From: a virus
DNA: 64,000 nucleotides
Direction: 5' to 3' (one strand)
Virus record (IMG/VR): IMGVR_UViG_3300021959_006017
Span: 124,001-188,000 of that record
The position numbers and the translations under genes are program-made. Each line of letters opens with the position of its first letter. The first letter of the stretch is position 1. The notes below the pieces were generated by a model, which searched no databases, was not told the DNA's origin, and worked only from the letters and a program-made list of their open reading frames with translations. This document shows positions 4,506 through 26,156 of the stretch, piece by piece.

Positions 4506-5633
4506 ATGTTAAAACATTTAGTTATTTTATTATCTTTACTCACACTGCCTTCTGGAGCATTTGCTTCTGCAGGGGCCATTGGCGAACTTAAAGGTTCTGG
4601 TGTACTAGAGAGAGATAATGAAGTAATTGAGGGCAACAAAGGCGTCAGTGTCCAAAGTATGGATACTGCCGTCACAGCCAACGGAAGGATGAGGATTGAT
4701 TTTGTTGATGAAACGAGGGTAGATTTAACAGAGCATTCTCGCTTGTTGATTGACGAGTTTGTATACGATCCTGCAAATGATGTTGGCACACTTTCGATCA
4801 AGGCAAGTCTGGGAGGAGTGCGTTATGCTTCAGGGCAAATAGCAAAACGTTATCGCCAGAATGTTAAGATCAAAACACCATCTGCTACAATCGGAGTTAG
4901 AGGAACCGATTTTATTATGTTAGTAGATGAGGCGGGGGGAACAATGGTTACACTACTTCCTTCTTGTGACGTAGATGGGTACTGTTACACAGGAGAAATA
5001 GAAGTAGAAACCGACGCTGGTTTCGTTATCATGAACCAAGCCTTCCAATCAACCATGGTCACACACGGCATGCGACCTCCGTCTCCTCCTCTTGTATTAC
5101 CGCTTAGTGAAAGCGACATCAACAACTTGCTAATACTACGTAAGAAAACTCCTTATGATGAGGAAGAAGATGAAATACGTAGGAAGGCAAAACAGATGTT
5201 TGATTTCTTAGCTATAGACGCACTAGAGTTTGACGAACTAGATAAAGATACACTCGCAGATTCGATCAAAGATATTTGGGTAACAGACTTAGATAGAGGA
5301 GCAGACTATTATTTAGGCGAACTACTACACGATATGATTGATTTGCTTAATCTAGCTCTTGCAGATTTATTTAGAGATCAACTCGACACAGAAAACGAAG
5401 AACTATTTAGACAAAGAGAATACGGATACGATGAAACTACACGTATTACCCTTAACTATTCACAACCTATATTCCACGTACAGCGTAATGACGTAGGAAT
5501 GTATCATACTATTGATCTTAAACTAAACGATCAATACGGCTACACTATTAACATGGAGCAACAGGATGGCGCAGTATACGACTATATGCTGGGCGTTGGT
5601 AGCAACACTATCGATATTACCCAACGTCAGTAA
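4506..5633 (+). CDS. Secreted FecR-domain protein with a curlin-like tail
   Basis: A 375-residue protein with a signal peptide (about residues 1-20, SGAFA). Residues about 22-180 form a FecR domain, seen in KTPSATIGVRGTDF at 123-136, the signature of periplasmic FecR proteins. The middle is acidic and helical (about 195-310). The last 55 residues become beta-rich and end NTIDITQRQ, resembling a curlin repeat. This couples a FecR domain to the amyloid system next to it. Its 3' end overlaps the next gene by 68 bases in another frame. FecR proteins usually transmit envelope signals; here a scaffold or sensor role is inference. Confidence 0.75.
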   Translation: MLKHLVILLSLLTLPSGAFASAGAIGELKGSGVLERDNEVIEGNKGVSVQSMDTAVTANGRMRIDFVDETRVDLTEHSRLLIDEFVYDPANDVGTLSIKASLGGVRYASGQIAKRYRQNVKIKTPSATIGVRGTDFIMLVDEAGGTMVTLLPSCDVDGYCYTGEIEVETDAGFVIMNQAFQSTMVTHGMRPPSPPLVLPLSESDINNLLILRKKTPYDEEEDEIRRKAKQMFDFLAIDALEFDELDKDTLADSIKDIWVTDLDRGADYYLGELLHDMIDLLNLALADLFRDQLDTENEELFRQREYGYDETTRITLNYSQPIFHVQRNDVGMYHTIDLKLNDQYGYTINMEQQDGAVYDYMLGVGSNTIDITQRQ

Positions 5634-9241: not shown

Positions 9242-11299
9242 ATGACTAAGTGGATCACACATTGGACAGTAGCCTTTGTTACGGCTGTAATCATGTTACT
9301 AGTGCATTACGGGGATAGCACCATTGTCCAAACAGCTAGGCTCAAGCAATTTGATCTACTACAAAACACAGATGAGCAGATAGTATCCCAGGATATTGCG
9401 GTAGTCGCTATCGATGAAACAGCTATTGAGAAGTACGGTCAATGGCCCTGGAAGCGAGATGTTATAGCAGACATAGTTTGGAAACTTCGAGAAGCAGGTG
9501 CTGGTATCATTGTGATGCCTATATTGTTTTCCGAGCCAGATCGATTGGGCGGAGATATGCAGTTAGCCGAAGCACTTGTAGGGAACGGCGTAGTTATCGC
9601 CCAAACGGGGACTACATCCGGAGTAAACCGCAATGCTGTACCAAGAGGTGTTGCGAAGATAGGAGATCCATTACCGTTCATGTTTGAATGGCCGGGAATG
9701 TTAGGTCCTATACCTCTGCTAGGGGAGAACGTTGATGGTGTGGGTGTGTTGAACACATTCCCTGAAATCGACGGTGTGGTAAGACGTGTACCTCTTCTTA
9801 TGCGTGTTCGGGATGAAACGTATCCGGCTATAGCAGTGGAAGTAATAAGAGTTGCAACAGCAGCACCTTCATATCAAGTTAAGGCTAACGAAGGTGGTAT
9901 TGAAGCTGTAAGAGTTCCTGGATATCCTACTGTGCGAACAGATCCAAATGCACAGATATGGTTGCGTTGGAACAAACAGTTTGAAACTGTAAGTGTTGCA
10001 AATGACGATCTTAACATTGTAGAAGGCAAGACAGTTATACTTGGTATAACAGCAGAAGGTATTGGTGCAACTGTTGGTACACCACAAGGCACACAATACA
10101 GTTATGTTCCTGCCGCGATTACACTACAAACTGTTATAGACGGTGATCAAATAGAACGTCCTTACTGGGCATTACTAGCAGAACTAGCAGCTACGGCAGC
10201 ACTTGGTTTATTATTAGTATTGCTTGCACGTTTCACTCCATATTATGTTGTTGGCGCAGCTATTGTGTTGTTGGGTGGAGGATTAGTATATGGTGCTTTA
10301 TATGCTTGGCAAAACTATTTGTATTTGCTAGACATAACAATGCCAATAGCAACTGTGTTACTTGTAGGTTTACATGCAGTATTCAATAGATTTGTTGCAG
10401 AGTTCTTTGAAAAGCAAAAGATTAAAAAGCAGTTCGAAGGATATGCATCTCCAGCAGTGGTTAAGATACTACAAGAAAATCCAGCACTAATCAAGAACGG
10501 TACTGAGCGTGATATTAGTATTGTGTTTTCAGACTTGCGTGGCTTTACTCCGCTAGGTGAATCGTTTGGCAAAGATGTACAAGGCTTAACACGTATTATG
10601 AACGGTTATATGGATGCTATTACAGAACCTGTGCTTGATGCAGACGGAATGATTATTAAGTATATTGGCGATGCAAGTATGCACATACACAATGCACCAG
10701 TTGATGACGACGATCATCCTAATACCGCAGTTCGTGTAGGGTTACAAATGCTACGAGCAGTGGAGAAGTTTAATGAAGATATTATCATTCCTGAAGGAAG
10801 ACCTCCCGTGGGTATGGGGGCTGGCATCAATACTGGACTTGGATTCTTGGGAGAGATGGGAAGCACCAAAAGACACTCATACGATGTCCTCGGAGATGCA
10901 GTCAGCACAGCCGCACGTATCGAATCAAAATGTAAAGAGTACGGGTGCTTGTTGCTCGTTGGAGGAGACACGGTAGAGCAATGTGATCAAACAGAGTTTT
11001 TCTTTGTTAAAATAGATAGTCTTGTTGCTAAAGGTAAGACAGATGCAGTTGACATTTATACAGTACTAGATAAACCTAAACCACACTATAAATCAAGCAG
11101 ACGTAGACACGACGGCATGCACAAGATGTATCAAGAACGTAGATGGGATGATGCAATAGAAGAGTGCCACAAACTTACTGGACAGTTTGAAGGACGTTTA
11201 GATGGTTACTACGAAATGTGGATTGATCGTTGTAATGAAATGCGCCACAAAGACTTACCAGATGATTGGGATGGCCGTTATATCGCAACTACCAAGTAG
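9242..11299 (+). CDS. CHASE2-domain receptor adenylate cyclase (class III)
   Basis: A 685-residue inner-membrane receptor. The order is a membrane helix (9-24), a periplasmic CHASE2 sensor (about 30-300, with AIDETAIEKYGQWPWKR), three helices (about 309-381), a class III nucleotide cyclase (about 422-590) and a short helical tail. Metal-binding Asp431 (FSDLRGF) and Asp477 (KYIGD) are present, and Lys473 and Asp548 suit ATP rather than GTP. The transition-state Asn of the usual VN...R motif is Ser555 (AVSTAAR), with Arg559 retained, so activity may be altered. It follows the curli/FecR cassette. It would make cAMP in response to an envelope signal; the ligand is unknown. Confidence 0.9.
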   Translation: MTKWITHWTVAFVTAVIMLLVHYGDSTIVQTARLKQFDLLQNTDEQIVSQDIAVVAIDETAIEKYGQWPWKRDVIADIVWKLREAGAGIIVMPILFSEPDRLGGDMQLAEALVGNGVVIAQTGTTSGVNRNAVPRGVAKIGDPLPFMFEWPGMLGPIPLLGENVDGVGVLNTFPEIDGVVRRVPLLMRVRDETYPAIAVEVIRVATAAPSYQVKANEGGIEAVRVPGYPTVRTDPNAQIWLRWNKQFETVSVANDDLNIVEGKTVILGITAEGIGATVGTPQGTQYSYVPAAITLQTVIDGDQIERPYWALLAELAATAALGLLLVLLARFTPYYVVGAAIVLLGGGLVYGALYAWQNYLYLLDITMPIATVLLVGLHAVFNRFVAEFFEKQKIKKQFEGYASPAVVKILQENPALIKNGTERDISIVFSDLRGFTPLGESFGKDVQGLTRIMNGYMDAITEPVLDADGMIIKYIGDASMHIHNAPVDDDDHPNTAVRVGLQMLRAVEKFNEDIIIPEGRPPVGMGAGINTGLGFLGEMGSTKRHSYDVLGDAVSTAARIESKCKEYGCLLLVGGDTVEQCDQTEFFFVKIDSLVAKGKTDAVDIYTVLDKPKPHYKSSRRRHDGMHKMYQERRWDDAIEECHKLTGQFEGRLDGYYEMWIDRCNEMRHKDLPDDWDGRYIATTK

Positions 11300-24523: not shown

Positions 24524-24598
24524 ATAGAGATTAAAGCACACTCTGCTCACTGTATAACAGAAGCAACAGATCTGATAAACTGGGAGTGTGTTTTATTA

Positions 24599-24687
24599 GG
24601 AGGATGGGCAGGACGGTAATGCAGCGGATTGCTAATCCGTACTACGTGAATAGCGTAGAGTGGGTTCGACTCCCACATCCTCCGCCA
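24599..24687 (+). tRNA. tRNA-Ser (anticodon GCT)
   Basis: Acceptor GGAGGAT pairs with ATCCTCC, then G and encoded CCA. The anticodon loop TTGCTAA gives GCT. A long variable arm (CTACG...CGTAG) marks a type II serine tRNA. Reads AGC/AGU. Confidence 0.93.
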
Positions 24688-24690
24688 CTT

Positions 24691-24764
24691 GCGGCATTGG
24701 TGTAGTGGTAACATGCGAGCCTTCCAAGCTCTTGTCACCGGTTCGAATCCGGTATGCCGCTCCA
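24691..24764 (+). tRNA. tRNA-Gly (anticodon TCC)
   Basis: Acceptor GCGGCAT pairs with ATGCCGC, then T and CCA. The anticodon loop CTTCCAA gives TCC, reading GGA/GGG. T arm CCGGTTCGAATCCGG is intact. Confidence 0.93.
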
Positions 24765-24776
24765 TAAGGAGAAGAT

Positions 24777-24971
24777 ATGTTTTTTGGAATAGCTCTTATC
24801 GCAGGATTGTTCGTCTACGATAATCAAGAGTTTTTTAATACAGTAGAACAAAACATTGAGGATGGTTTTACTTGGGAGTATGTTGGTAAACAAGATCCAG
24901 CAGGACAACCAGCTGTAACCGTCCTTGACGGCCAAAACAACGAAGTCATTTATTTCAAAATGACTAAGTAA
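24777..24971 (+). CDS. Small protein encoded between tRNA genes
   Basis: A 64-residue protein with a hydrophobic start (FFGIALIAGLFVYDNQ) and a beta-rich soluble tail. AAGGAGA lies 5-6 bases before the ATG, a strong ribosome site. It sits between tRNA-Gly and tRNA-Thr and so shares their transcript. No family recognised. Confidence 0.6.
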   Translation: MFFGIALIAGLFVYDNQEFFNTVEQNIEDGFTWEYVGKQDPAGQPAVTVLDGQNNEVIYFKMTK

Positions 24972-24976
24972 AATAC

Positions 24977-25052
24977 GCTGGTTTAGCTCAGTTGGTAGAG
25001 CAGGGGTTTTGTAAACCTCAGGTCGGGAGTTCGAGTCTCTCAACCAGCACCA
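24977..25052 (+). tRNA. tRNA-Thr (anticodon TGT)
   Basis: Acceptor GCTGGTT pairs with AACCAGC, then A and CCA. The anticodon loop TTTGTAA gives TGT, reading ACA. D and T arms are canonical. Confidence 0.94.
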
Positions 25053-25056
25053 TAAT

Positions 25057-25141
<85 letters not shown>

Positions 25142-25309: not shown

Positions 25310-25510
25310 ATGAGTAATCAAGGAAAAGTAAAATGGTTCGATGCCACTAAAGGTTTTGGATTTATCGCTACCGAAGACAAAGATATCTTCGTACACATTT
25401 CAGCAGTAGAAGCCGCAGGCTTACGACAGTTGAATGAAGGCGATACTGTACGGTTTGAAACACAGGATGGTCCAAAAGGTCCTTCTGCTATAAACTTAAC
25501 AGTCAACTAG
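25310..25510 (+). CDS. Cold-shock-domain RNA/DNA-binding protein
   Basis: A 66-residue CspA-family protein. RNP-1 KGFGFI (about 14-19) and RNP-2 DIFVHIS (about 25-31) are intact, and length is normal. Such proteins bind single-stranded RNA and melt structure, acting as RNA chaperones or antiterminators. It sits directly upstream of the leader ORF and terminator of the second tRNA group, where an RNA-melting protein could matter. That link is inference from position only. Confidence 0.93.
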   Translation: MSNQGKVKWFDATKGFGFIATEDKDIFVHISAVEAAGLRQLNEGDTVRFETQDGPKGPSAINLTVN

Positions 25511-25539: not shown

Positions 25540-25568
25540 TTGACAAACCGGAATAAATAAAGTATAGT
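25540..25568 (+). promoter_or_regulatory. Sigma70-like promoter of the second tRNA group
   Basis: TTGACA (25540-25545), 17-base spacer, TATAGT (25563-25568). RNA would start near 25575 and run through the leader ORF, the terminator and the Trp-Pro-Ser-Cys tRNAs. TGTTAAAA (25527-25534) and TTTTAACA (25592-25599) form an inverted repeat around it, the 3' arm touching the leader start codon. Confidence 0.75.
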
Positions 25569-25598
25569 ATATACATACTAAGAAATAAGGATTTTAAC

Positions 25599-25661
25599 AT
25601 GTTCAAGACTAACACAACAAATATTACTTGTTGGCCATCACGAAAGTGGGGTATGTCTTGA
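25599..25661 (+). CDS. Leader peptide with Cys-Trp-Pro-Ser codons (attenuator candidate)
   Basis: A 20-codon ORF (ATG 25599, TGA 25659-25661) with AAGG about 10 bases upstream. Codons 11-14 (25629-25640) are TGT TGG CCA TCA, that is Cys-Trp-Pro-Ser. These are exactly the four codons read by the four downstream tRNAs: tRNA-Cys(GCA), tRNA-Trp(CCA), tRNA-Pro(TGG) and tRNA-Ser(TGA). A further Trp codon is at position 17. The ORF is followed by an intrinsic terminator and no other gene before the tRNAs except a 15-codon ORF. The likely role is to sense charged tRNA by ribosome stalling rather than to make a functional peptide. Confidence 0.6.
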   Translation: MFKTNTTNITCWPSRKWGMS

Positions 25662-25699
25662 CGTGACTTTTTAAAAAGTTATTTTAGACAAAGCCCCCA
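25629..25699 (+). promoter_or_regulatory. Alternative RNA folds of a putative attenuator
   Basis: Three mutually exclusive pairings are visible. Fold 1:2 is a GAAA-capped hairpin of CAC/GTG with flanking pairs (25635-25651). Fold 2:3 pairs TGGGG (25647-25651) with CCCCA (25695-25699) and TGTCT (25654-25658) with AGACA (25686-25690), which uses up the terminator 5' arm. Fold 3:4 is the terminator. A ribosome stalled at the Cys-Trp-Pro-Ser codons would cover the 1 segment and favour 2:3. Confidence 0.45.
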
Positions 25700-25726
25700 A
25701 GCAGCAATGTAAGGGGGCTTTTTTTT
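25690..25726 (+). terminator. Intrinsic terminator between leader ORF and tRNA-Trp
   Basis: AAAGCCCCC (25690-25698) pairs perfectly with GGGGGCTTT (25713-25721), with a 14-base loop and a T run to 25726. It stands inside the unit, before the tRNAs, as in attenuators. Confidence 0.85.
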
Positions 25727-25741
25727 ATGGAGAAAGGAAAA

Positions 25742-25789
25742 ATGACTGATAGTGAATATTGGCGATGGATGAAATCGCAAGTTGAATAA
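25742..25789 (+). CDS. 15-codon ORF just before tRNA-Trp
   Basis: ATG 25742 with a strong GGAGAAAGG ribosome site; the peptide is MTDSEYWRWMKSQVE. It holds two Trp codons one residue apart and ends 7 bases before tRNA-Trp. It may be a true micropeptide or a second sensing ORF. Confidence 0.4.
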   Translation: MTDSEYWRWMKSQVE

Positions 25790-25796
25790 AGTTTTT

Positions 25797-25870
25797 GTCG
25801 GTGAAGTGTTATGGTAGCACGGCGGTCTCCAAAACCGCAAGCCGGGGTTCGACTCCCTGCACCGATGCCA
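25797..25870 (+). tRNA. tRNA-Trp (anticodon CCA)
   Basis: Acceptor GTCGGTG pairs with CACCGAT (one G-U), then G and CCA. The anticodon loop CTCCAAA gives CCA. Confidence 0.93.
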
Positions 25871-25948
25871 CGGAGTGTAGCTTAGTCTGGCTAAAGCGCC
25901 TGGTTTGGGACCAGGAGATCGTAGGTTCGAATCCTACCATTCCGACCA
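25871..25948 (+). tRNA. tRNA-Pro (anticodon TGG)
   Basis: Acceptor CGGAGTG pairs with CATTCCG, then A and CCA. The anticodon loop TTTGGGA gives TGG, reading CCA. Starts directly after tRNA-Trp. Confidence 0.94.
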
Positions 25949-25950
25949 AT

Positions 25951-26040
25951 GGAGAGTTGGCAGAGCGGTTTAATGCACTGGTCTTGAAAACCAGCGAAGG
26001 TGAAAGCCTTCCGAGAGTTCGAATCTCTCACTCTCCGCCA
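25951..26040 (+). tRNA. tRNA-Ser (anticodon TGA)
   Basis: Acceptor GGAGAGT pairs with ACTCTCC, then G and CCA. The anticodon loop CTTGAAA gives TGA, and the long variable arm (GAAGG...CCTTC) fits serine. Confidence 0.94.
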
Positions 26041-26044
26041 TTAT

Positions 26045-26119
26045 GTGAGCGTGGCAGAAAGGTTATGCAACGGATTGCAAATCCGTTTTATGCAAGTTCG
26101 AATCTTGTCGCTCACTCCA
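26045..26119 (+). tRNA. tRNA-Cys (anticodon GCA)
   Basis: Acceptor GTGAGCG pairs with CGCTCAC, then T and CCA. The anticodon loop TTGCAAA gives GCA. Last tRNA of the second group. Confidence 0.93.
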
Positions 26120-26126
26120 TTTTCGG

Positions 26127-26156
26127 TTGACATTTTCAAAATAGATGTTATATTAT
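26127..26156 (+). promoter_or_regulatory. Sigma70-like promoter
   Basis: TTGACA (26127-26132) with a -10 region TATATTAT (26149-26156), 26 bases before the phosphoesterase ATG. It starts just after tRNA-Cys. Confidence 0.65.

Follow-up and report, generated by a model that had tools for sequence, protein, structure and literature searches.

Transcription attenuators of the trp type, among them the trp leader (Rfam RF00513) and those of the his, thr, leu and ilv operons, have in common a short leader open reading frame (ORF), regulatory codons at about codons 10 to 13, and a choice between protector, antiterminator and terminator helices in which termination is the default when the leader is not translated. 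In the trp model, slow reading of the regulatory codons permits continued transcription (PMC1183508). T-box riboswitches are also cis-acting terminator/antiterminator switches that report on tRNA charging, but they bind uncharged tRNA directly, without translation. Why and when phages make tRNAs of their own has been an open question for decades. In infected cells, host anticodon nucleases and other tRNA-cleaving defences are among the known causes of tRNA loss, and phage tRNAs that compensate for such cleavage owe their value to the replacement of depleted host tRNAs; the reports on them deal with altered tRNA sequences or with a strong promoter of the phage, and mention neither attenuation nor a leader (PMC10264068, PMC11555353).

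The phage locus described here appears, judging from its sequence and those of its relatives, to be a ribosome-mediated transcription attenuator of the trp type ahead of a tRNA operon, a reading to which we give a probability of about 0.85. It resembles the trp-type leaders in its short ORF, the position of its regulatory codons and its three-way choice of helices, the compensating phage tRNAs in the putative value of replacing depleted host tRNAs, and the T-boxes in being a cis-acting switch responsive to tRNA charging, although it would use a translated ORF for the purpose. It departs from the trp-type attenuators in controlling tRNAs rather than enzymes and in sensing several different codons at once, which track the tRNA set, and from the trp leader in that the start-codon region serves as segment 1 of the alternative pairings, with the stop codon falling within segment 2. 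While the class of mechanism is classical, we have not found described before the control of tRNA genes, a sensor of several codons, or its co-evolution with the operon. A preliminary description of the locus, made from the sequence alone, knew of no such feedback for phage tRNA genes, and no description of phage tRNA attenuation was found in the open-licence papers searched, Rfam, Pfam or NCBIfam, though an older account may have been missed. The Rfam family Trp_leader (RF00513) gave 25.1 bits (E = 0.04 over 3 kb), below its gathering cut-off of 41 bits, the T-box families gave no match at E ≤ 1, and Rfam matches in the region other than tRNAs were sub-threshold or due to tRNA similarity; three leader peptides had no profile match among the leader-peptide families of Pfam and NCBIfam.

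The window analysed is a stretch of 64,000 nucleotides (positions 124,001 to 188,000) of the IMG/VR virus record IMGVR_UViG_3300021959_006017, which has 236,751 bases. The features of the locus, in window positions, are these:

25540-25568, + strand: sigma-70-type promoter TTGACA-17-TATAGT (sequence scan)
25587-25591, + strand: Shine-Dalgarno sequence AAGGA, start codon 7 nt downstream (read from the sequence)
25598-25609, + strand: segment 1, start-codon region CATGTTCAAGAC, pairing with segment 2 (swapped-arm test, pair counts)
25599-25661, + strand: leader ORF of 20 codons, MFKTNTTNITCWPSRKWGMS (covarying, conserved homologues in 68 distinct leader-operon pairs)
25629-25640, + strand: control codons 11-14, TGT TGG CCA TCA, for Cys Trp Pro Ser (sequence; codon-tRNA covariation)
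25634-25651, + strand: small hairpin between the CC-rich control codons and TGGGG (RNAalifold on 60 leaders; fold of leader L001)
25648-25665, + strand: segment 2, GGGGTATGTCTTGACGTG, overlapping the stop codon, partner of segment 1 or segment 3
25666-25683, + strand: ACTTTTTAAAAAGT, a local AT-rich hairpin that separates segment 2 from segment 3 (fold; sequence conserved)
25686-25698, + strand: segment 3, AGACAAAGCCCCC, 3' arm of the antiterminator and 5' arm of the terminator (folding)
25690-25726, + strand: intrinsic terminator AAAGCCCCC...GGGGGCTTTTTTTT, segments 3:4 and U tract (reading, folding, covariation)
25797-25870, + strand: tRNA-Trp(CCA), which opens every read-complete operon of the family (tRNA prediction)
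25871-25948, + strand: tRNA-Pro(UGG)
25951-26040, + strand: tRNA-Ser(UGA)
26045-26119, + strand: tRNA-Cys(GCA)
26127-26156, + strand: promoter of the next gene, for a metallophosphoesterase, which ends the attenuated unit

The preliminary description had placed the promoter, the 20-codon ORF with its Cys-Trp-Pro-Ser codons, the terminator and the four tRNAs at the same positions; the terminator, absent from the list of a simple terminator scan, was found and confirmed by reading and folding. A promoter with at least 9/12 matches stands upstream of the leader in 60/68 relatives, and the Shine-Dalgarno sequence is kept in 64/68. Under this phage's codon usage, 1.5e-5 of 20-codon ORFs should contain four adjacent codons cognate to the four tRNAs, in whatever order; this figure carries no correction for the number of loci that a reader scans, and the decision was therefore left to the relatives. 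Between the terminator and tRNA-Trp (25727-25789) there is a further small ORF, MEKGKMTDSEYWRWMKSQVE, which contains Tyr-Trp-Arg-Trp codons and was seen nowhere but in this genome and the near-identical contig. A gene for a cold-shock-domain (CSD) protein (25310-25510) lies directly upstream of the leader, a position not conserved in the relatives.

Related loci, designated here by L numbers, were gathered from IMG/VR by the neighbouring metallophosphoesterase gene and by DNA patterns drawn only from the part of the leader past the control codons, so that the codons to be tested played no part in the sampling. After parsing, the set comprised 84 leader contexts with 76 unique leader-operon pairs; the 68 to 69 that had complete operons entered the tests. 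An in-frame TGG occupies one of codons 10-13 in every leader, and in every read-complete operon tRNA-Trp comes first; among loci anchored on the phosphoesterase gene, a leader lies within 260 nt of 45/47 tRNA-Trp genes as against 0/89 other tRNAs that lead a cluster. The sequences are metagenomic and mutually related, and the counts are of sequences, not of independent events.

Each tRNA type was scored for a leader codon that it can read, the start codon and the last four codons being excluded. Taking all tRNAs, contiguous or not, 122/135 were matched, where 88 were expected from permuting tRNA sets among leaders (z = 8.9, 0/5000); this count stayed at the random level when either shifted frame was used, or when leaders were scored against the tRNA cluster that lies upstream in these genomes. 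The preliminary description had proposed that leader codons should co-vary with the tRNA set in relatives and had named as refutation the case in which relatives keep the tRNAs and not the codons. The proposal is borne out and that case is not met: of the non-Trp tRNAs in the contiguous run that tRNA-Trp opens, 113/115 have a codon in the leader that they can read (permuted mean 82, z = 8.5), and among near relatives with different tRNAs, taken as 33 disjoint pairs with nearness judged on non-coding sequence only, 33 codon changes were concordant and 1 discordant (p = 2e-9), the codon being unchanged in a further 42 tRNA differences. In shifted frames the paired test gave concordant-to-discordant ratios of 14:9 and 5:9. 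The tRNAs gained, lost or swapped with a matching codon change comprise Tyr, Cys, Gly, Ser(UGA), Gln, Ile(UAU)/CAU and Arg. The near-identical leaders L235 and L274, for example, read ..TTSIIGWPSRKWGMS (peptide ...SIIGWPS..) with tRNA-Gly and without tRNA-Cys, and ..TTSIICWPSRKWGMS (...SIICWPS..) with tRNA-Cys and without tRNA-Gly, respectively; from L022 to L023, CCA becomes TCA, and tRNA-Ser(UGA) is present only in L023; a Tyr codon is present whenever tRNA-Tyr is; and in L012 and L141 a CGT codon occurs together with Arg(ACG).

Some arrays resume after a gap of 42-50 nt with Arg, Glu or Ala tRNAs, and these gaps contain a consensus promoter, which frees the tRNAs behind it from control by the attenuator. 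Only 3/14 of the tRNAs with their own promoter in the same array are matched, against the 113/115 that are contiguous (Fisher p = 1e-11), so the rule covers tRNAs that the attenuator can control and not the neighbourhood at large. When codons were relabelled at random, the observed association was never reached (0/10000, z = 5.7). The problem of kinship is addressed in part by each of three controls: the paired comparison of near relatives, the tRNAs with their own promoter, and the relabelled codons.

The match holds at the level of the codon and not only of the amino acid. ATA occurs in 13/13 leaders with an Ile(UAU) or CAU tRNA, as against 8/55 without, and ATT/ATC show the opposite (4/13 versus 36/55); leaders of operons with Ser(UGA) have TCA in 12/13 cases and AGY never. 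This association is our ground for inferring that the CAU tRNAs, as lysidine-modified Ile2, read ATA. Reading of GGT by Gly(UCC) requires superwobble. The direction of the rule is from tRNA to codon, and its converse is loose, since Cys, Pro or Tyr codons stand in many leaders without that tRNA; this holds above all for Cys, with 21 leaders that have the codon and no tRNA-Cys, and for Pro, whose codons are in nearly all leaders whether or not tRNA-Pro lies downstream. Trp and Pro are nearly invariant and carry little covariation information.

At the RNA level the layout is one of four segments, as in trp, with a long helix joining the start-codon and stop-codon regions (1:2). This helix, which the preliminary description had not seen, is more stable with its own arms than with swapped ones (-12.4 versus -10.2 kcal/mol, 0/5000, z = -8). 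Leaders that start with GTG have CGCG or CACG past a TAA stop and those that start with ATG have CGTG or similar past TGA, and a double change of an A-U to a G-C pair is seen in 17 sequences, although the switch between GTG/TAA and ATG/TGA may reflect few events. The preliminary description had also proposed an antiterminator of GGGG with CCCC plus TGTCT with AGACA, and a check of covariation in terminator and antiterminator. For the terminator (3:4) covariation is clear, both sides of 5 pairs having changed (0/500); the antiterminator (2:3) is possible and conserved in the relatives, being 92% paired as against at most 66% when slid, but its covariation is not significant. The small hairpin said to overlap GGGG is likewise possible and conserved: in the RNAalifold consensus of 60 leaders the CCNCC columns pair with the GGGG columns, and it is because of this second role of CCNCC, likewise unseen before, that Pro codons are near-universal and persist without tRNA-Pro. 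The spacing from TGG to GGGG is mostly 13, 16 or 19 nt; the indels thus preserve the reading frame, for which a non-coding RNA would have no need.

Folding was modelled with and without a ribosome. With none, 1:2 and 3:4 form in 65/68 leaders; with a ribosome placed at TGG and the RNA transcribed as far as segment 3, 2:3 forms in 68/68; with a ribosome at the stop codon, 3:4 forms in 68/68. Once segment 4 is made in the stalled state, the terminator returns at equilibrium in 65/68, so the switch must be kinetic. From usual footprint sizes we infer that a ribosome with TGG in its A site covers the CC arm and has GGGG at its edge. What is expected of a ribosome-mediated attenuator is thus present: a short leader ORF with a Shine-Dalgarno sequence before an intrinsic terminator, in the window and 68 relatives (translation being inferred); regulatory codons cognate to the products of the operon; and mutually exclusive helices 1:2, 2:3 and 3:4 by folding, with covariation for 1:2 and 3:4 only.

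Trp-leader anatomy, the invariant Trp and the weak, sub-threshold match to Rfam Trp_leader would also suit an attenuator that senses starvation for amino acids (Trp, Cys or others) as in trp and his, the tRNA genes being mere cargo. We consider this unlikely, because the codons track the isoacceptor, with ATA and not ATT/ATC alongside AUA-reading tRNAs and TCA and never AGY alongside Ser(UGA), and extra tRNA is no cure for the lack of an amino acid; since the codon matters and not just the amino acid, the shortage is more probably of a tRNA species than of an amino acid. There is only a slim case for an arrest peptide, in which W-P-P or W-C-P would stall the ribosome through the nascent chain or for lack of EF-P, whatever the identity of the codons: P or CP nearly always comes right after the W, and ribosomes are known to be slowed by adjacent prolines (PMC8129111), but the residues near W are diverse (WPP, WCP, WPL, WCL, WCS, WYP, WCG) and vary with the tRNA set, and CCNCC has a pairing role.

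The leader adjoins the operon and the sequences share ancestry, so it might be argued that leader and operon types have simply been inherited together and that the codon match is a by-product of linkage. Linkage, however, would tie any codon to any tRNA, whereas the cognates exceed all 10,000 random relabellings, and the tRNAs of the same array that have their own promoter are mostly unmatched, which makes this account very improbable. Hardly any weight remains for an RNA-binding protein that overrides the terminator and renders translation irrelevant. Cold-shock proteins can act as antiterminators, and the CSD gene at 25310-25510 stands upstream in this genome, yet the other loci retrieved with the CSD gene have no tRNA operon, save the near-identical contig and a few distant ones, and the conserved ORF, the frame-keeping indels and the codon covariation would be left unexplained.

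Under the preferred reading, ribosome-mediated attenuation, polymerase would start at the promoter at 25540-25568 and a ribosome would translate the 20-codon leader. With the tRNAs for TGG and its neighbouring codons plentiful, the ribosome would reach the stop codon and cover segment 2, and the 3:4 terminator would form; were the leader untranslated, segment 1 would hold segment 2, again with termination. If a charged tRNA were scarce, the ribosome would halt at the control codons, disrupt the CC:GGGG hairpin and hinder 1:2, and segment 2, thus freed, would pair with segment 3 and let polymerase continue into the genes of the missing tRNAs. The leader would in this way be a multi-input sensor of the tRNA species encoded by the operon, evolving along with it. 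The attenuation proposed in the preliminary description is accordingly supported as an interpretation, with its response to charging still an inference. What sequence comparison can establish by itself is the anatomy, the codon-tRNA covariation and helices 1:2 and 3:4; the ribosome stall, the switch, the response of read-through to charging and any benefit are inferred in the absence of expression, ribosome or charging data.

The inferred benefit concerns tRNAs that disappear once the host is shut off or that are destroyed by host anticodon nucleases, and the link to these nucleases and other tRNA-cleaving defences is likewise an inference. We think it fairly probable, with less assurance than for the attenuator as such, that the operon senses shortage of its own tRNAs, that the leader is rewritten at each gain or loss of a tRNA, and that cleavage or decay of host tRNAs is answered as it occurs. 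If so, no tRNA genes would have been known before to be subject to feedback through ribosome-mediated attenuation, which would be extended from amino-acid enzymes to tRNA genes; the locus would reveal which tRNAs the phage treats as prone to shortage and tie their synthesis to it, and would provide a natural and modular means of sensing when single isoacceptors are depleted, bacterial anticodon nucleases being one cause of this.

At 53% identity, the terminase of the phage is closest to those of Pseudomonas jumbo phages, among them PA5oct, MIJ3 and Paride, the last of which is classified in the Arenbergviridae, and the genome encodes an ATP-dependent DNA ligase and a clamp-loader-like AAA ATPase. 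A marine habitat of the phage family is inferred from the type of metagenomes and from the relatives, not from the result of any tool. A search for the leader in isolated phages gave unrelated terminator fragments only, a tight pattern found none in GTDB genomes, and a covariance-model search of Paride, Atu_ph07 and Phosso gave nothing convincing, a tRNA region of Paride that was inspected having neither an annotated tRNA-Trp nor a leader match; hence no cultured host is known. In the whole 236,751-base record, model R1 detects the leader once, and no second leader precedes the upstream tRNA cluster of the window (24599-25141). Elsewhere in the window, 9242-11299 encodes a protein with CHASE2 and adenylate/guanylate cyclase domains (PF05226, PF00211), unusual cargo for a phage.

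Other elements were observed in and around the tRNA arrays. Complete sigma-70-like promoters lie within those of L012, L048, L050, L052, L141, L142, L143, L200, L228 and L262. An RNA of 60-70 nt that folds as a three-way junction, with a closing stem ACACTC/GAGTGT and a conserved CAGATCTGATAAACTGG, occurs at 24532-24603 of the window, at L141:4357-4428 and in L160, L163, L192, L200, L210, L213 and L229, standing before a Ser or Trp tRNA and no more than a few nt from the first tRNA of the cluster in 9/9 distinct copies; its hairpin arm varies in sequence with pairing maintained, and it has no Rfam match. A hairpin element of about 75 nt, ACTACACTACG...AGTGTAGT, lies between the attenuator terminator and tRNA-Trp in L041 (about 4680-4765), L049 and L143. 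Structured-looking, promoterless inserts of 93 nt and 120 nt occur in the arrays of L026 (4762-4854), L229 and L277, in the latter two between tRNA-Trp and the next tRNA, and the tRNAs past such inserts still follow the codon rule. Upstream of the leader in L041 (4035-4243) there is a near-threshold match to the manA RNA (RF01745, 49.6 bits versus 55.2).
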